Assembly (NCBI RefSeq): GCF_003664005.1
Contig: NZ_RCCJ01000001.1
Span: 930,001-994,000 of the forward strand
Source of the DNA: Hydrogenivirga caldilitoris
Lineage (GTDB): Bacteria; Aquificota; Aquificia; Aquificales; Aquificaceae
Reading direction: 5' to 3'
DNA length: 64,000 bases
Positions within the stretch are counted from its first letter, which is position 1. Each line of letters starts with the position of its first letter. This document shows positions 24,456 to 32,617 of the stretch, in pieces. The notes beneath the pieces are model-generated. The model did not search any database. It was not told the DNA's origin and worked only from the letters and a program-made list of their open reading frames with translations. The position numbers and the translations under genes were made by a program.

Positions 24456-24950
24456 ATGTCACAATCAGTTGAGAAGAACGCAGTTGTCTCCTTCCACTAT
24501 ACCCTTAAGGATAAGGAGACCGGAAGTGTAATTGAGTCCAGCAAAGAAGGTGGACAGCCTGTATCCTTCCTTGTAGGAGCCGGCGAGATAATCCCTGGTC
24601 TTGAAAGCAGAATGCTGGGAATGACCGTTGGTGAGAGCAGGGATATTGAGGTTCCCGCAGAAGAAGCATACGGACCCAGAAACCCGGAGCTTATACAGAA
24701 AGCTCCTCGTGAGTACTTCCAGAATGTACCCCTTGAAAAAGGGCTTCCTCTGCAAGCTCAAACCCCAGAGGGAAAAGTTATAAACATGGTCGTGGTTGAT
24801 TTTGATGAGCAAACAGTTACAGTTGATATGAACCATCCGTTGGCTGGTAGAGACTTGGTTTTTGAAATTGAAATCCTTGATGTGAGGGAAGCCTCACCGG
24901 ATGAGATACTTCACAGACACGCTCACGGACCGGGCGGGGCTCATCACTAA
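24456..24950 (+). CDS. slyD: SlyD-like FKBP-type peptidyl-prolyl isomerase
   Basis: Folding helper and, in relatives, a nickel chaperone for hydrogenase maturation. The FKBP domain with inserted IF chaperone domain is visible (VSFHYTLKDKETGSVIESS ... EAYGPRNPELIQKAPREYF). The tail is histidine-rich but short (HRHAHGPGGAHH), enough for some metal binding. Length (164) fits. Start is supported by AAGGAG nine bases upstream. The 3' end overlaps the convergent ABC permease gene by 4 bases. Confidence 0.93.
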   Translation: MSQSVEKNAVVSFHYTLKDKETGSVIESSKEGGQPVSFLVGAGEIIPGLESRMLGMTVGESRDIEVPAEEAYGPRNPELIQKAPREYFQNVPLEKGLPLQAQTPEGKVINMVVVDFDEQTVTVDMNHPLAGRDLVFEIEILDVREASPDEILHRHAHGPGGAHH

Positions 24951-25747
24951 GAGCTGAAAGCTCTTCTGAGAAAGGCTAAGCCGAATAGGAAAATCATAGC
25001 CCCCACTATCGTGCCGCTTGGGGGCAAATCGTAATAGAAGGCCAACGCTATACCCGCGACCACAGATACAAGCGATACACCCGTAGATACAATTACAGCG
25101 CTGAGAAAGGAGCTTCCCATGAGTAAAGCTGTCAAAGCGGGTATAACTATCATTGAAGAGGCTAATATTATTCCAACAGCCTTTATTGCCATAACTATAA
25201 CCAGTGAAGAAACGGATACTAGCAGATGGTTCATAAGGGTAAGATTTACGCCTTTCAGCTTGGCAAGCTCCTCGCTAAAGGATAGAAGGACAAGTTTCTT
25301 ATAAAAGACTATGAAGAATAGGAGAACCAATGCAGAGGATACCAAAGAAAAGTAGAGTTCTTCCCTTGTGACTATGAGTATGTTTCCAAATAGGTAACTG
25401 AATATGTATTCTCCAAATCCCTTAACTATACCCAGGATAAGCACCGCAAGGGCAACACCTCCTGAGAACACAAGGGCTATTGCAGCATCACCAGGCACAC
25501 GTCTGTGGTAAATTAGCACCTGAACCAGGTTGCCAACAAGTATCGTAAAAATAGAGGTAAACAGAAAAGGTTCAACACCCAAAAGCATACTCAGTGCTAT
25601 ACCGCCGAAGGCAGCATGGGATAAACCCGCTCCGAGAAAGGACATTCTCCTCAATATCAGGAAGACGCCTGCGATAGCAGAAACTATGCCCACCGTTACG
25701 CCTGTTAATATTCCTCTCTGAACAAAGTCATAACTAAGGAGTTCCAT
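24947..25747 (-). CDS. Metal ABC transporter permease (ZnuB/MntB type)
   Basis: Integral membrane permease of a Zn/Mn-type importer. About eight hydrophobic helices are visible in 266 residues, with family text such as LGAGLSHAAFGGIALSML and VGIILASSMIVIPALTALLM. It is the last gene of the DJ-1/SBP/ATPase/permease operon and overlaps the ATPase gene by 14 bases. Zinc versus manganese cannot be told from sequence alone. Confidence 0.92.
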   Translation of the reverse strand: MELLSYDFVQRGILTGVTVGIVSAIAGVFLILRRMSFLGAGLSHAAFGGIALSMLLGVEPFLFTSIFTILVGNLVQVLIYHRRVPGDAAIALVFSGGVALAVLILGIVKGFGEYIFSYLFGNILIVTREELYFSLVSSALVLLFFIVFYKKLVLLSFSEELAKLKGVNLTLMNHLLVSVSSLVIVMAIKAVGIILASSMIVIPALTALLMGSSFLSAVIVSTGVSLVSVVAGIALAFYYDLPPSGTIVGAMIFLFGLAFLRRAFSS

Positions 25748-26432
25748 TTTTGATACCTCTTCTTATACCAAATAACTCCTCTATGGTGTCCAAAGCCTCA
25801 TCGGGTTCCCCATAGTAATGTACACTCCTGTTTATACACAGAACCTTATCCACGTTTTTCAGAACCAAACCCAAATCGTGGGATATCATAAGTACGGTTT
25901 TTCCTTCGTTTGTAGACAGCTCTCTTAGTATTTGGGTTATGTGCATCTGAGCGTGTATATCCAATCCCGCGGTTGGCTCGTCAAGGAGTAACAACTCAGG
26001 TTCCGATGCGATAGCCATACCCAAGAGAACAAGCTGCTGCTGTCCTCCAGAGAGCTTCAGGAACTGTCTGTCTATATAAAAGTCTATATGTAAGAAGTCT
26101 GCGATATCCTTGATCCTTTCCCTTCCAGCTACCAATGAGAGGAGTTCTCTTACTGTTGCTGGGAAGTTCTGTTCAACGTTTAGCTTTTGGGGAACGTAGC
26201 CTATCCTGTTCCATTCCTTGAAGTGCTTTATATCCGTCCCGAAGAGCTTCACCTTCCCCCCAGTTGGTTTCAAAAAACCAAGAATTATCCTAAACAGAGT
26301 TGTTTTTCCTGCACCGTTTGGTCCTACGATACCGATAAACTCTCCCTTCTTTACCTTGAAGTTTACGTTTTCAAGGGTATTGACCTTTCCGTCATAGGAA
26401 AAAGATAGGTTTTCCGCTTCTACTACATACAT
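25734..26432 (-). CDS. Metal ABC transporter ATP-binding protein (ZnuC/MntA type)
   Basis: ATPase of the importer. Walker A GPNGAGKTT, Q-loop VPQKL, signature LSGGQQQ, Walker B LLLLDEPTAGLD and the switch His in ISHDLG are all present. Length (232) is normal. It overlaps the binding-protein gene by 10 bases and the permease by 14, showing tight coupling. Confidence 0.95.
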   Translation of the reverse strand: MYVVEAENLSFSYDGKVNTLENVNFKVKKGEFIGIVGPNGAGKTTLFRIILGFLKPTGGKVKLFGTDIKHFKEWNRIGYVPQKLNVEQNFPATVRELLSLVAGRERIKDIADFLHIDFYIDRQFLKLSGGQQQLVLLGMAIASEPELLLLDEPTAGLDIHAQMHITQILRELSTNEGKTVLMISHDLGLVLKNVDKVLCINRSVHYYGEPDEALDTIEELFGIRRGIKNGTP

Positions 26433-27268
26433 TCCAGTGCTTCCCTGAGGACCTTCAGATTGTATCTCATTATGGAGAAGTAATCCTTACCGTGCTCTGA
26501 GGGGATAATTTTGACGTTCAGTCTGTAAATCCTTAGATTGTATTCTTTAGTGAACACGTCAGCATACTTTGACCTTGCCCCGTATATTTCAAACATAAAG
26601 TTTATACCTTTCTCCTTTACCTCAGAAATGAATCGGGAGAGCTCTATCGGTGATATATCCCCGTGAACATCGCCACTGCCTATGGAAAGCTGGCTCAATC
26701 CGTAATCTTGTGCAAGGTAACCAAGGGCAGGGTGGGGTATAGGTATCACCCTGTGCTTGCAGCTCTTGAGGTTTTCTCTGTAATCCCTGTCCAGCTCCTT
26801 GAGTTTATCCAGAACTTTACGCAGGTTCTCTCTGTAAATGTCTTCCTTATCTGGTTCAAGTTTTACAAAGGCTTTGTAAGCGTTCTCTGCTACAAGCATC
26901 ATCCTTTTGGGTGAGAGCCATATGTGGGGGTCAGTTTTAACACCTCCATGCTCGCCGGAACTTTTAAGCTCTATACCCTCAGCCAGTTTAAAGGCTCTGT
27001 TTCCGGATATCTCTTCAACCTTTCTCTCCCAACCCCCTAACGGTATCCCGCTAACGAATACAAGCCTTGCCTGAGATATCTTCTTGATTTCCTTTGATGA
27101 AAGTTCGTAAAGATGGTAATCAGCCTTCGGTGGTATCAGAACCTCAACCCTGAATCTATCCCCCGATAACTCTTTCAGCACGTCGTAGAAGGGGTACACG
27201 CTCACGAGAACAAACTCTTTAGCCGTAGTAATGAGAGGTATAAGTATAAGGACTAAGAGGAATCTCAC
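26423..27268 (-). CDS. Metal ABC transporter substrate-binding protein (ZnuA type)
   Basis: Periplasmic cluster A-I binding protein. A signal peptide (MRFLLVLILIPLITTA) precedes the metal ligands: His in PPKADYHLYE, His in DPHIWLSPK, His in PIPHPALGYLA, and an acidic C-terminal residue in EIYGARSKYADV. There is no long His-rich loop, though a short EHGG is present. Length (281) is normal. It overlaps the DJ-1-type gene by 4 bases. Confidence 0.9.
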   Translation of the reverse strand: MRFLLVLILIPLITTAKEFVLVSVYPFYDVLKELSGDRFRVEVLIPPKADYHLYELSSKEIKKISQARLVFVSGIPLGGWERKVEEISGNRAFKLAEGIELKSSGEHGGVKTDPHIWLSPKRMMLVAENAYKAFVKLEPDKEDIYRENLRKVLDKLKELDRDYRENLKSCKHRVIPIPHPALGYLAQDYGLSQLSIGSGDVHGDISPIELSRFISEVKEKGINFMFEIYGARSKYADVFTKEYNLRIYRLNVKIIPSEHGKDYFSIMRYNLKVLREALECM

Positions 27269-27789: not shown

Positions 27790-27807
27790 GGGTTTAAATT
27801 TTACTTC

Positions 27808-28959
27808 ATGAGGGAAGCTTTAACCTTACTTTTCCTTATAGTCTCCTATAACTTCCTCCTATGGTACATAACAGCCTCTGGGCTTTCTCCAATACCGTTG
27901 TTTCCGGAGGATGTTCACAACGTGATACTTGTGCTCGCTTACACTTCCGTTCTCTATATAAGCTGGTTGTTCGGGGAAAGACATGGAACCGTCCAGTGGA
28001 TAGGTTACCTTTTCTTCTTCCAAATAGTAGCTCTCAGTGTATACTTTGGTAACTTAGAGATAATTGTTAGAGACTTACCGCCTGTTATCTTTACCTTTGC
28101 ACTGGTGGCGCTCTTTGAATCTCCAACGGAGAGGAACCTAAAACAGATACAAAGGGAGAGGGAGGAGCTCTTAAGAGAGATTGATAGGGTCGTTAAGGAG
28201 AGGGAAAGGATAGAAGTACACCTCCGTCTTTTGAAGCAGGAAATAGAGAAGGTTGAAAAGGAAAGGGGCGAGGAAGTTTCGGAAGAGAGGGAGCGGGAAC
28301 TTGAGGAAAGGCTTGAGGAGCTTCAGAGAGAGCTTAAGGAATATAAGGAAAAGGAAGAGAAACTTGTTGAAGCAAATAGGAAACTCTTTCGGCTCCTGGA
28401 GGCTATGAGAGAGGAAGAGGGGCATACGGGGAGTAGAGATGAGCTTGTGAATCTCAGGAAAGAAAGAAAGAGACTTATAAAAGAGCTTCTTCAACTTCAA
28501 GAGCTCGTTGACCTTTATTCAGATGAAAACGAAAAACTCAAAGAAGAGGTTGAAGGACTAAAAAGAGAGGTTGAAAACCTCAGCGTAAAGGTTAGTGCCC
28601 TTGAAATAGAGCTTGAACAATGTGGGAAGACTGAGGGCAGAGGGCTGCTTAAAGAGGTGTTCAGCTCAATTCCCGGTGTAAAGTTCGGTGATAGAGCCCT
28701 TGAGGAGCTTATAAAACTGCCCCCGGAAAAGAGGAAGGTTGTTATAAAAGAGGTTCTCCGCCTATCCCAAAGACAGGGTAATGAGAATGTAGAGCCTTTA
28801 ACCACATTACCTGACATTTACAAGTTAAGGTTCTCCGGAGGGAGAATTTACCTCAGGAAAGCCAACAACTCTTGGGAAATCGTGGGTGTGCTTGGTTCAG
28901 AGGACAATAAGGAGAAGGAGCGTTACATAAAGAACGTTTTAAGTAAAATATATAAATAA
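27808..28959 (+). CDS. Membrane-anchored coiled-coil protein with RelE-like C-terminal domain
   Basis: Not a known family as a whole. Residues 1-105 hold four hydrophobic helices; residues about 110-285 are a continuous charged coiled coil (Glu/Lys/Arg heptads). The last 95 residues look like a RelE/ParE toxin fold: an ALEELIKLPPEKRKVVIKEV helix pair, then PLTTLPDIYKLRFSGGRIYL, WEIVGVLGSEDN and a final helix. The resemblance is by pattern (helix-helix, conserved L-LxLRxGxxR-type strands) and needs structural support. No antitoxin gene is adjacent. Directly downstream are an eRF1-like protein and a NYN RNase, so a ribosome-linked role is inferred. A TAAATT hexamer lies 7 bases before the ATG with no Shine-Dalgarno. 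Confidence 0.75.
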   Translation: MREALTLLFLIVSYNFLLWYITASGLSPIPLFPEDVHNVILVLAYTSVLYISWLFGERHGTVQWIGYLFFFQIVALSVYFGNLEIIVRDLPPVIFTFALVALFESPTERNLKQIQREREELLREIDRVVKERERIEVHLRLLKQEIEKVEKERGEEVSEERERELEERLEELQRELKEYKEKEEKLVEANRKLFRLLEAMREEEGHTGSRDELVNLRKERKRLIKELLQLQELVDLYSDENEKLKEEVEGLKREVENLSVKVSALEIELEQCGKTEGRGLLKEVFSSIPGVKFGDRALEELIKLPPEKRKVVIKEVLRLSQRQGNENVEPLTTLPDIYKLRFSGGRIYLRKANNSWEIVGVLGSEDNKEKERYIKNVLSKIYK

Positions 28960-28987
28960 AACAACGCAGAAAAAAGGAGGAAAATAT

Positions 28988-30211
28988 ATGGCAAGTTTAA
29001 GAGAAACTCTTGAGAAGCTCGCCTCTTTAAGGTCCGAGAGCGCTCTGGTAACGTCTCTTTATCTTCACCTGAGACCAGAGGAGAGGCAGGACAACAAGTA
29101 CCTGAGAATTTACAAAGATATGGTAAAGGAGAAAAAGGAAGAACTCTCAAAGAGGAACCTCTCTAAAGGGCTTTTTGACTCCCTTGAGAGGGATTTTGAG
29201 ACGATAGGTGAATTTCTATCTGAACCGAAGAACTTAGATGGGTGCAGGGGCATAGCTATCTTCTCCTGTTCGGCAGAGAATATCTTTGAGGTGGTAAAGC
29301 TACCTTACGTATATAGGAACAGACTTATGGTAGCTCCCGACCCTCTTATAAGAGAGATAGCCGCCATAGACGAGGAGTTCGGAAAGGTGGCTGTCCTCCT
29401 GTTGGACAGAAAGCATGTTAGGTACTTCCTCATGGATATAGAGGAAACGACAGAGAAGGTAGATTTCCTTGAGCCGCTTGCTACCAGGGCACACAGATTC
29501 CATAGCGGGGGTGCTGCCTTAAAAGGTGCACAGGGAACATTTCAGCTCAGGATGCCATCCAGAGGAGCAGCTCCAAATATGGTTCAACACTCTTACGGCG
29601 AGTGGCGTTTTCACATGAGGATAAGGGAGGAGTGGCACAGGGTTCTCAAGCTTGCTGCAGATGCAGCCTTTGAAGACTGGAAAGAGAGCAAGTTTGACAG
29701 GCTTGTCATCGGAGGCTTCCTTGAAAATGGTATCAGGGAGATAGAAAACCACCTTCACAGGTACCTTAAGGAGAGACTGTTGGGGTACATAGAGGTGAAC
29801 ACCTCCGAGGCTAAACCTACGGAGGTCAGAGAGAAGGTTCTCAATCTGCTATGGGAAAAGGACAGAGAAGAGGAAAGGAAGCTGATATCTGAGCTTGAGG
29901 AACTTATTGGGAAGGGTCTCGCCGTAAACGGCACCTCTAAAGTTCTTGATATGCTCGCCGTTGGCAATGTAAGGACCATCCTGGTTCCTGAGAACTTTGA
30001 AAAACCCGGGTATCTATGTCCGGAAACCCACCTAGTATCTCTGAAACCGGAGTGCCCCCTTGAAGGGGAAAAACCTGTTGAGATAGGGGACATAGTTGAT
30101 GAGGTTATAGAAGAGGCACTTGACCAGAAGGCAACCGTTGAGATAGTCGTAAACGAGGAGTTACAGAGGAAGATTGATGGGCTCGCTGCCTTTCTGAGAT
30201 TTAGCCTATGA
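28988..30211 (+). CDS. Bacterial eRF1-like (baeRF family) protein
   Basis: The 407-residue protein has the three-part layout of bacterial/archaeal-type release-factor homologues: an N-terminal region (about 1-125), a central domain (about 126-270; KVAVLLLDRKHVRYFLMDIE) and a C-terminal L7Ae/ribonuclease-like fold (about 270-400; KVLDMLAVGNVRTILVPENF). A Gly-rich segment at 175-190 (HSGGAALKGAQG) stands where eRF1 family members have a catalytic or GGQ-type loop, but no GGQ is present. A role in ribosome rescue or stalled-complex processing is inferred from the family. It overlaps the NYN gene by 4 bases. Shine-Dalgarno AAGGAGG is 6 bases upstream. Confidence 0.8.
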   Translation: MASLRETLEKLASLRSESALVTSLYLHLRPEERQDNKYLRIYKDMVKEKKEELSKRNLSKGLFDSLERDFETIGEFLSEPKNLDGCRGIAIFSCSAENIFEVVKLPYVYRNRLMVAPDPLIREIAAIDEEFGKVAVLLLDRKHVRYFLMDIEETTEKVDFLEPLATRAHRFHSGGAALKGAQGTFQLRMPSRGAAPNMVQHSYGEWRFHMRIREEWHRVLKLAADAAFEDWKESKFDRLVIGGFLENGIREIENHLHRYLKERLLGYIEVNTSEAKPTEVREKVLNLLWEKDREEERKLISELEELIGKGLAVNGTSKVLDMLAVGNVRTILVPENFEKPGYLCPETHLVSLKPECPLEGEKPVEIGDIVDEVIEEALDQKATVEIVVNEELQRKIDGLAAFLRFSL

Positions 30212-30804
30212 ACGAAGAGAGGTTAATGATTTTCATTGATGGCTCTAACCTCTTTCACGGTATAAGGTATCTCAACATCAAGATTGACTACGGAAGGCTT
30301 ATTGAGTTTTTGAGGGAAAGCAGAAGGCTTGTGAGGACGTACTTTTATACTGCAGTTCCTCAGGACAGGGACGTTAGAAAGGGGACTCCCGAGTGGGAAA
30401 GTCTCGTTCGTCAGAAAAGATTTCTGGATGAGCTTGCCCTCTCAGGTATAAAGGTTAAGCTTGCAAAGTTGAGAAAACTACCCTCAGGTGAGTTTGTAGA
30501 AAAGGAAGTTGACATAATGCTCGCCACGGACATGCTCTCCTTGGCTTATCAGGATGCTTATGACACTGCCATACTTGTGAGCGGAGACAGCGACTTCATA
30601 TATACAGTTGAAGATATACAGAGAATAGGGAAAAGGGTTGAGAACGCAACCTTTAAAAAGACGAGCTCCTATAACCTCAGAAAAGCCTGTGACAGGTTCA
30701 TACTCCTTGACGATTTCCTTGATAGGTTCACTTATGAGGAGAAACCTGCACTGTACGAAGAGGTTGGTTTCTGGGCAAAGATAAAGAGCCTTTGGAAGAG
30801 ATGA
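30208..30804 (+). CDS. NYN-domain (LabA-like) putative RNase
   Basis: PIN-like nuclease fold. The acidic residues that bind metal are present: IFIDGSNLFHG, KEVDIMLATDML and LVSGDSDFIYTVE. Family members cleave RNA. The 198 residues include a short C-terminal extension (about 165-198). ATGA overlaps on both sides tie it to the eRF1-like gene and rdgB. Confidence 0.88.
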   Translation: MNEERLMIFIDGSNLFHGIRYLNIKIDYGRLIEFLRESRRLVRTYFYTAVPQDRDVRKGTPEWESLVRQKRFLDELALSGIKVKLAKLRKLPSGEFVEKEVDIMLATDMLSLAYQDAYDTAILVSGDSDFIYTVEDIQRIGKRVENATFKKTSSYNLRKACDRFILLDDFLDRFTYEEKPALYEEVGFWAKIKSLWKR

Positions 30805-31403
30805 AGCTTCTTGTTGCAACTACAAACCCAGGTAAACTCAAGGAAATAAAGAGGATACTGGAACCCATAGGTCTTGAAGTGGTTGAGCCTACGGAGAATA
30901 TAGAGGTGGAGGAAACAGGAACTACGTTCCTTGAGAACGCCTACCTTAAGGCAAATGCTTACTATGATAAGTTCAAGCTTCCCACCCTTGCCGATGACTC
31001 TGGTCTCGTTGTTGACGCTCTTGGAGGTTATCCAGGGGTTTACTCAAGCAGATTCCATGAAATAGAGTTTGGGGGTAAAGAACCAATCATAGGAAGCAGG
31101 GACGAGACAAATATAAGGAAACTCCTCAGACTTATGAAGGGAAGAGAAGACAGAAGTGCAAGATTCGTTGCCTTTGTGGTTCTTTACTTCAACGGCAAGG
31201 GATTCTTTGCAGAGGGCGAATGTAAGGGAACGATAACCGAAAGTCCAAGGGGGCAGGGTGGTTTTGGGTATGACCCCATCTTTAAACCGGAAGGTTTCAA
31301 GAAAACGATGGCTGAGCTCTCCCCCGCAGAGAAAGATGCAGTTTCCCACCGAGGGAAGGCTTTGAGGAATATGTCAGAGCTCCTGTCCAAGTGTAAGCTG
31401 TAG
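30801..31403 (+). CDS. rdgB: XTP/dITP pyrophosphatase
   Basis: House-cleaning enzyme that hydrolyses non-canonical purine nucleoside triphosphates. Motifs: LLVATTNPGKLKEIKRIL at the start, ADDSGLVVDAL, and SPRGQGGFGYDPIF followed by SHRGKAL. Length from the ATG at 30801 is 200 residues. That ATG overlaps the NYN stop (ATGA) and is preferred over an upstream TTG. Confidence 0.95.
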   Translation: MKLLVATTNPGKLKEIKRILEPIGLEVVEPTENIEVEETGTTFLENAYLKANAYYDKFKLPTLADDSGLVVDALGGYPGVYSSRFHEIEFGGKEPIIGSRDETNIRKLLRLMKGREDRSARFVAFVVLYFNGKGFFAEGECKGTITESPRGQGGFGYDPIFKPEGFKKTMAELSPAEKDAVSHRGKALRNMSELLSKCKL

Positions 31404-32617
31404 TGAGTGTGAAAAGAAAGATAAAAACTCTGGAAGCTTTAAGAAGCACTTTAAATGTCTGGGAGGTGATAGCTGTCAACAGGTATAAGAAGTACAGCTC
31501 TGTTGTTGGCGCTCAACTTCCTTACTTTCTGAGACTCCAGGAAGTTCTTGAACATCTTTACTCTCTTTACTCAGGAGTAAGGATAGACCTGCTGGAGTTA
31601 AGGGAGGAGAAGAATGTTGATGTACTTGTCCTTACTTCAGACAGGGGTTATATAGGAGATTTTGTTACAAGAACGCTTAAGACCCTGAAAAGCTTCATTG
31701 AATCTAAGAAAGACAAGAATATAAATCTCTTTCTTGCCGGCAAGAAGGGAGCCACCAGCAGGTTACTTGATACAGGGGCTGTTGTTTTTGAAGGTGTTCT
31801 CACAAAGGATATAGATTGGGATGCAGTCGGAAATATAAAGAGTGTCTTGGTAGAAAGGTTCAGGAAAGGTTTCAGCGATGCCTGCTATGTAATATTCCAG
31901 AGACCCGAGGTTGAGCTGGGGGAGTTGATAGAAATTGAGGAAAGAGAGAGGAGGGAAGCACTGCTTGAGGAAAGCCCTTTCTTTTATCCAAAGTTTGAGG
32001 AGGTTTTCAAAGTGAAACCCATGCTTGCTGCGGAGAGAGGGAGATACAGGCCTGTAATCACCAGGTTTCTTCCCGCAGACGTAAGGAAGAGGTACTCCAA
32101 AGAGATCATTTTAAACATTGAAGCTCCTGAAGAAGCGTTCATAGATGGACTCCTAAGGCTTTATATCAGTTTTTTTATAAAGGAGGTATTCCTTGAGCAT
32201 TTCACATCCATAAACTTTGCAAGGTACAGAACTATATCAAGGATACTTGAGAATATAGATAGGAAATTAAACACTTACAGGTTTGTGCTGAATAAACTCA
32301 GGCAGGAGAAGATAACAAAAGAGATAGAAGATATAGTATTTGCCTTCTTGGCTACCGAAGAGAAAAAGCTGAAAAGCCTCTTTGAGAGGGGGTATATCTT
32401 GGAGATAGACGTAAAGGCTGAGGACACGAGAGGGAGAGAACTCAAGGAAAGGTTGGAAAAGCTTGGCTTCCCGATAAGGGAGGTCCGTAAGAGGGTCCTT
32501 ATAGGTGGTTTTAGGCTTTTAAGAGAGGGGGAAGCTATAGATTTATCCGTTGAAGGGGTGTTCAATTTACTGAGAGGCAGCATCAAACGCCGTATATTGA
32601 GAGGCAAGGACTGGTAG
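31403..32617 (+). CDS. F1-ATPase gamma-like protein fused to a delta C-terminal-like domain
   Basis: The N-terminal helix (VKRKIKTLEALRSTLNVWEV), a Rossmann-like part (VDVLVLTSDRGYIGDFV) and the long C-terminal helix (RKLNTYRFVLNKLRQEKITK, then EIEDIV) follow the order and spacing of the F-type gamma subunit. The last ~75 residues (LEIDVKAEDTRGRELKERLE, then VRKRVLIGGFRLLREGEAID) look like the C-terminal domain of the delta/OSCP subunit (pattern GGxxxRxGxxxID-S). A gamma-plus-delta fusion of 404 residues is not a standard architecture. The GTG start overlaps the rdgB stop by one base. Whether it is the main or an extra subunit is unknown; no other ATPase genes are in the window. Confidence 0.72.
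   Translation: MSVKRKIKTLEALRSTLNVWEVIAVNRYKKYSSVVGAQLPYFLRLQEVLEHLYSLYSGVRIDLLELREEKNVDVLVLTSDRGYIGDFVTRTLKTLKSFIESKKDKNINLFLAGKKGATSRLLDTGAVVFEGVLTKDIDWDAVGNIKSVLVERFRKGFSDACYVIFQRPEVELGELIEIEERERREALLEESPFFYPKFEEVFKVKPMLAAERGRYRPVITRFLPADVRKRYSKEIILNIEAPEEAFIDGLLRLYISFFIKEVFLEHFTSINFARYRTISRILENIDRKLNTYRFVLNKLRQEKITKEIEDIVFAFLATEEKKLKSLFERGYILEIDVKAEDTRGRELKERLEKLGFPIREVRKRVLIGGFRLLREGEAIDLSVEGVFNLLRGSIKRRILRGKDW

Follow-up and report, generated by a model that had tools for sequence, protein, structure and literature searches.

A RelE-fold domain in a membrane-anchored Aquificales protein encoded beside a Balon-like factor and a NYN nuclease

The window analysed here, a 64,000-nucleotide stretch of the Hydrogenivirga caldilitoris genome, carries on its plus strand three adjacent genes that encode a membrane-anchored coiled-coil protein with a C-terminal RelE-fold domain (protein 1, 383 aa; 27808-28959), a baeRF family 12 protein with a Balon-like three-domain architecture (protein 2, 407 aa; 28988-30211) and a NYN-domain (PIN-like) nuclease (protein 3, 198 aa; 30208-30804). 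Homology of residues ~288-381 of protein 1 (28669-28950) to RelE is established by five agreeing tests, namely a PHROG match, a profile search of the PDB, an hhalign comparison, a ParE_toxin scan and an AF2 model searched with Foldseek, and orthologues with the same layout as protein 1 are found in Aquificales. As the best explanation of the three genes we propose a conserved ribosome/RNA-silencing module of the Aquificaceae that is tethered to the membrane, a reading to which we give an even chance and whose mechanism we infer. The narrower proposal, in which ribosomes at the cell membrane would be silenced or cleared by an antitoxin-free membrane-anchored RelE effector together with a NYN RNase and a Balon-type factor, is more tentative and falls some way short of even. 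A literature search found no description of this three-gene set.

The ORF list agrees with the three plus-strand frames of the initial annotation, which had also described the genes as coupled, a description that fits one of the two junctions. The baeRF and NYN genes overlap by ATGA, whereas the end of the protein 1 gene lies 28 nt from the start of the baeRF gene, which has its own AAGGAGG ribosome-binding site within that gap (28974-28980, plus strand); coupling is thus tight for baeRF-NYN and loose for protein 1-baeRF. The NYN gene in turn overlaps a HAM1/ITPase-like gene by ATGA (30801-31403, plus strand; Pfam 1.3e-62), so that in this genus the local operon extends beyond three genes; HAM1/ITPase is a cassette member in some genera only and lies outside the conserved core. 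The next gene after HAM1 (31403-32617) encodes an F1-ATPase gamma-like protein (Pfam 5.4e-35, far under the NCBIfam equivalog cut-offs) that is longer, at 404 aa, than the usual ~290 aa and is possibly a diverged paralogue. On the upstream side, 18 nt (27790-27807) separate the divergent start codons of a DJ-1 gene and of protein 1, implying that coding sequence contains at least one promoter or that the transcripts have almost no leader. A znu-type metal ABC transporter (24947-27268) is located beside protein 1 in genus g1, with DJ-1 between them, and such a transporter also adjoins protein 1 in genus g11 (L157 5965-9483; L158 4440-7983), where baeRF-NYN is elsewhere; given this proximity, a tie of protein 1 to metal limitation is possible.

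The RelE/ParE likeness of the last ~95 residues of protein 1 had initially been called from a visual match, and it was upheld by profile and structure comparisons. Using orthologues drawn from 64 genomes of the family, we aligned the last ~100 residues of the protein. PHROG 1213, annotated 'RelE-like toxin', matched 18 of the 28 orthologues (best 2.2e-6), and the domain of the window protein at 2.3e-5. When the alignment profile was searched against all PDB sequences, the first four matches were E. coli RelE (E 0.0019-0.0033), followed in fifth place by a coiled coil (E 0.059). Comparison of the domain with Aquificota RelE/ParE toxins by hhalign gave 90.8% (E 1.2e-6), against 1.4% or less for the controls (eight column-shuffled versions and four baeRF pieces; n = 12). 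A blind genome scan with Pfam ParE_toxin (PF05016) retrieved the protein 1 orthologue of genome G109 at 25.2 bits (cut-off 23); as a whole protein, the same orthologue scored 20.5 bits for PF05016 by hmmscan, slightly below the cut-off. The window protein itself has no RelE match in Pfam or in NCBIfam, and a single-sequence search of the PDB with the RelE-like domain returned nothing useful, so that PHROGs, profiles or structure were required to reveal the signal. Structure prediction, proposed at the outset as a check, returned a RelE-type fold: the AF2 model of the domain (pLDDT 87; pTM 0.80) has a strand-helix-helix-strands-helix order, which is the beta-alpha-alpha-beta(3-4)-alpha fold expected of RelE/ParE. 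Foldseek against the PDB placed only RelE/ParE/HigB/YoeB types among the top 27 matches (target-normalised TM up to 0.81), followed by the CARF-RelE effector Cami1.

In E. coli RelE the most important residues are R61, R81 and Y87, with K52/K54 of lesser weight, and R61 is needed for full activity (PMC2807027). The counterparts of K52 (K339) and R61 (R346) in protein 1 are invariant in 28/28 orthologues, the residue corresponding to K54 (R341 here) is basic (Lys or Arg) throughout, and 23/28 have a Tyr near the C-terminus. At the position of R81, placed by sequence alignment of the following strand rather than by superposition, every one of the 28 orthologues has Glu (E365 here). Arg81 is the general acid of RelE. 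The RelE-type pocket of protein 1 therefore appears conserved but altered, and judging from these residues and from the lack of an adjacent antitoxin gene we would put catalysis by the domain at a little under even. The domain may cut mRNA with an altered site, in which Glu replaces Arg81, or may be a non-cutting grip on the ribosome; we lean slightly towards a non-cutting or weakly cutting domain.

Comparison with known RelE proteins revealed both shared and distinct features. Protein 1 has the same fold, profile and K52/K54/R61 positions as the RelE/ParE superfamily (E. coli RelE, HigB, YoeB; PHROG 1213; PF05016/PF05973), but differs from the toxins by the membrane helices and coiled coil in front of the domain, by the Glu for Arg81 and by having no neighbouring antitoxin gene. 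We found no antitoxin-like ORF beside protein 1, whose neighbours are the divergent DJ-1 gene and baeRF, and the locus thus does not have the adjacent, co-transcribed small antitoxin gene of a type II toxin-antitoxin system. In Cami1, a CARF-RelE protein of type III CRISPR, a RelE domain fused to another domain cuts mRNA in the A site (PMC11229360), and like protein 1 it holds its RelE domain within a larger protein without an antitoxin of its own. Cami1 is, however, soluble and switched by cyclic tetra-adenylate, whereas protein 1 is membrane-anchored and no CARF domain was found in it.

The membrane part of protein 1 (27820-28116) comprises about four hydrophobic segments (residues ~5-22, 38-56, 63-80 and 88-103; Kyte-Doolittle, window 19), and the orthologue alignment shows L10, L18, P33, L49, W53, F55, G56 and R58 in this part to be invariant. 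It is followed by a charged coiled coil of ~170 residues (residues ~106-275; 28123-28632; 27% E, 23% K+R, 1% P), the core of which is conserved at residues ~186-244 (invariant N190, L193, E212, L216, R217, R220, L223 and E226) and is likely a docking site for a partner. Searched whole against Pfam and NCBIfam, protein 1 gave coiled-coil matches only; PADLOC matches to JetC, DndD and others were rejected as being of the same coiled-coil kind. Within the searches made, the protein 1 family is confined to Aquificales, the phage collection held no close relative of protein 1, and the plasmid collection held none of its RelE domain. Protein 1 is vertically inherited.

Protein 2 matched Pfam baeRF_family12 (69.5 bits; cut-off 27.7), family 10 (49.6 bits; cut-off 27.1) and eRF1_3 (29.3 bits; cut-off 25.8). 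The NCBIfam Balon-type hibernation families were also matched (E 1.7e-17), although the scores for the Balon equivalogs (64.0, 53.2 and 26.5 bits) did not reach the curated cut-offs (330, 480 and 320 bits, respectively). In the AF2 model of protein 2 (pLDDT 83) the loop at residues 161-194 is disordered, and the best Foldseek match was Balon Msmeg1130 of M. smegmatis (8v9j; E 5.7e-21; TM 0.66/0.72), with archaeal aRF1 ranking behind it. Balon-type factors bind the A site under stress and have an EF-Tu beta-hairpin, a bL27 trap and an HP motif. Alignment of the loop at the GGQ position (29492-29611), which the model shows as disordered, revealed invariant H172, G174 and G175 and a Gln after the GG in 0/26 sequences; NIKS is absent from the protein 2 sequence, and two invariant Cys lie in the C-terminal region, where aRF1 has a zinc ribbon. 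Balon proper also has neither GGQ nor NIKS (PMC10901736), and protein 2 shows the combination that marks the Balon type, three aeRF1-like domains without these two motifs. Peptide release as the default role was rejected, the Gln of GGQ being missing in 26/26 sequences; a Gln at position 200, conserved in 24/26, leaves a small doubt on this point.

In having this three-domain fold without GGQ and NIKS, protein 2 resembles Balon/Msmeg1130/Rv2629 and baeRF families 10/12, but it differs from Balon in scoring below the equivalog cut-offs and in adjoining a NYN gene and a membrane RelE protein rather than RaiA/HPF. By its predicted structure, protein 2 appears more akin to Balon, a hibernation factor, than to release factors, and this closeness, together with the lost Gln of GGQ, makes hibernation or A-site blocking a better guess than termination. 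For the baeRF clade, A-site blocking or rescue was predicted by Burroughs and Aravind, who linked the clade to HPF (PMC6514570). HPF is present in this genome, ~112 kb from the cassette. The Sulfurihydrogenibium yellowstonense SS-5 draft has a lone baeRF, 61% identical, on a contig of 3.8 kb (L098/L161, 540-1757), alongside a gene that by eye is RelA/SpoT-like; the family of this draft is otherwise without baeRF, and we attribute the lone gene to lateral transfer or contamination.

Protein 3 matched Pfam NYN with 115 bits (cut-off 24.2; 4.6e-33) and structure 2qip, and D11, D102, D108, D127 and D129 are invariant in an alignment of 25 orthologues. NYN nucleases follow a three-Asp rule (PMC11346440), and protein 3 is predicted to be a NYN nuclease with an intact acidic active site. 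Of the initial reading of the locus, the membrane anchor, the eRF1-family protein and the PIN-like NYN nuclease hold up. Protein 3 shares the Pfam NYN domain and the invariant Asp with other NYN nucleases (LabA-like; MARF1; CRISPR NYN; Rae1/YacP), but its partners differ from theirs. Rae1 is a NYN-type nuclease of the A site (PMC6613710); unlike protein 3, it belongs to the NYN_YacP Pfam family and not to PF01936. A PADLOC search matched protein 3 to HEC-09 (7.9e-18) and to a LabA-like NYN, and a defence role based on these matches was set aside, as nothing else indicates defence. Aquificales genera that lack both protein 1 and this baeRF also carry NYN orthologues (roughly 52-64% identity), suggesting that NYN is the oldest or most independent member of the three. 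A second NYN paralogue, 39% identical, is encoded in the same genome (1119136-1119618, minus strand; L002) and is likewise widespread in the phylum.

The conserved neighbourhood that had been put forward as a further check is kept across genera: in our survey of families f1 and f3, all three genes are contiguous in 32 Aquificaceae genomes belonging to six genera. The baeRF and NYN genes are adjacent in 45 of the 51 genomes that have both (gaps -1 to 19 nt), and protein 1 and baeRF in 33/49 (gaps 11-77 nt). Family f3 has the three genes apart, on separate contigs, and both protein 1 and baeRF are absent from genus g4 and family f2, with the exception of one draft f2 genome with a lone baeRF. 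Among the names recorded for carriers are Aquifex, Hydrogenobacter and Thermocrinis; one Sulfurihydrogenibium draft is listed too. The whole Aquificaceae cassette is also present on a contig labelled 'Acidobacteria bacterium isolate J001' (L107), which is probably misnamed or from a mixed bin. In genome G052, where baeRF-NYN lies away from protein 1, a gene overlapping the baeRF start (L152 4759-5658) resembles EpmA/PoxA by eye. EpmA/PoxA is the EF-P lysyl ligase, another stalled-ribosome factor. A hand count limited to 88 genomes of at least 90% completeness revealed protein 1 with baeRF in 39, protein 1 only in 3, baeRF only in 2 and neither in 44; by itself this co-occurrence is weak evidence, since the pattern follows phylogeny.

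In the module that we propose, protein 1, probably dimeric, would reside in the inner membrane with its RelE domain in the cytoplasm, where the domain would engage the A site of ribosomes near the membrane. Like Balon, the baeRF would block the A site when ribosomes are idle or stalled, and NYN, docked on protein 1, would trim or destroy the associated RNA. In favour of this picture are the RelE homology with its conserved basic residues, the Balon match, the NYN active site and the gene linkage; Cami1 and Rae1 provide precedents for its RelE and NYN parts. RelE and Balon/eRF1-type factors both occupy the ribosomal A site, so that the RelE domain and baeRF cannot act together on one ribosome and a joint complex is unlikely; the two would instead work in sequence or on separate ribosomes. 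Alternatively, NYN could work with protein 1 while baeRF guards other ribosomes. Of the membrane-linked system for stalled ribosomes and RNA cleavage that was first suggested, the parts thus stand, but its literal joint form is weakened by the Glu at Arg81 and by the shared A site. Counting against the module are also the change of R81 to Glu in 28/28, the dispensability of baeRF, the occurrence of NYN alone in g4 and f2, and the separate contigs of the f3 genes.

Two of the alternatives, a tether and an RNA-decay complex, are specific forms of the same module, and our confidence in them overlaps with that in the module as a whole. The first, which we hold to be a reasonable possibility though clearly below even, is that the RelE fold of protein 1 is non-catalytic and would grip idle ribosomes at the membrane, while baeRF would sit in the A site of others, both serving membrane storage during stress. 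The invariant Glu at R81, the lack of an antitoxin gene beside protein 1, its vertical inheritance and its absence from the phages and plasmids searched, and the Balon-like nature of protein 2 are all consistent with such storage; by contrast, the counterparts of K52, K54 and R61 show full conservation, which would be expected were RNA chemistry or binding still important in the pocket, and the constant partner NYN is a nuclease. RNA decay is anchored at the membrane by RNase Y and RNase E, and in the second alternative, which we consider doubtful, protein 1 and NYN would be the real unit of a membrane RNA-decay complex to which baeRF is accessory. Among the genomes with protein 1 and NYN and without baeRF, protein 1 is located directly before NYN in 6/7 (2-100 nt), indicating that the middle gene is cleanly absent and dispensable, and the coiled-coil core, the likely docking site, falls within the stretch of protein 1 that is most conserved. 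However, in most of g8 and in g10 and g11 it is protein 1 that has moved elsewhere, with baeRF-NYN still coupled.

The trio might also have no functional link, its gene order being kept by chance through common descent, which we regard as improbable. The trio is restricted to a single bacterial family, and its adjacency is mostly a matter of vertical inheritance within that family. As a background for gene order, we compared the 64-kb window with one genome of a distant genus, G057, in which 9 of the 29 adjacent same-strand window pairs with both orthologues remain adjacent, both cassette pairs included. The non-cassette pairs alone survive in 7/27 (26%), a rate that lends the chance reading some weight, although most of these survivors look like functional units themselves (e.g., the znu-type ABC genes). 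G057 has not kept the flanking links to DJ-1, HAM1 and F1-gamma, and in several genera the flanks of the cassette scatter while the trio stays. Moreover, where one gene is lost or has moved, the remaining two stay joined, and they do so in two different pairings, which argues against chance. Finally, an antitoxin-like arrangement, in which baeRF, by occupying the A site, would shield ribosomes from the RelE domain, draws on the expected competition of the two proteins for that site and on their adjacency in 33 genomes, but was rejected as very improbable because protein 1 is retained in genomes that have no family-12 baeRF, the nearly complete G043 (99%) and G062 (96%) among them, so that baeRF cannot be an obligatory antitoxin.

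Balon relatives are widespread among bacteria. In the locus described here, the RelE fold is found outside toxin-antitoxin pairs, in a vertically inherited membrane protein that has a gene-order link to a Balon-family factor. If the narrower proposal holds, protein 1 would be the first RelE protein directed at ribosomes to form part of the membrane, as a component of housekeeping or of stress responses. If our reading is true, ribosome hibernation, A-site RNA cleavage and membrane localisation would be joined in a deep-branching lineage of thermophiles. Aquifex, Hydrogenobacter and Thermocrinis, all of them with strains in culture, appear to belong to this lineage, which makes the proposal directly testable.
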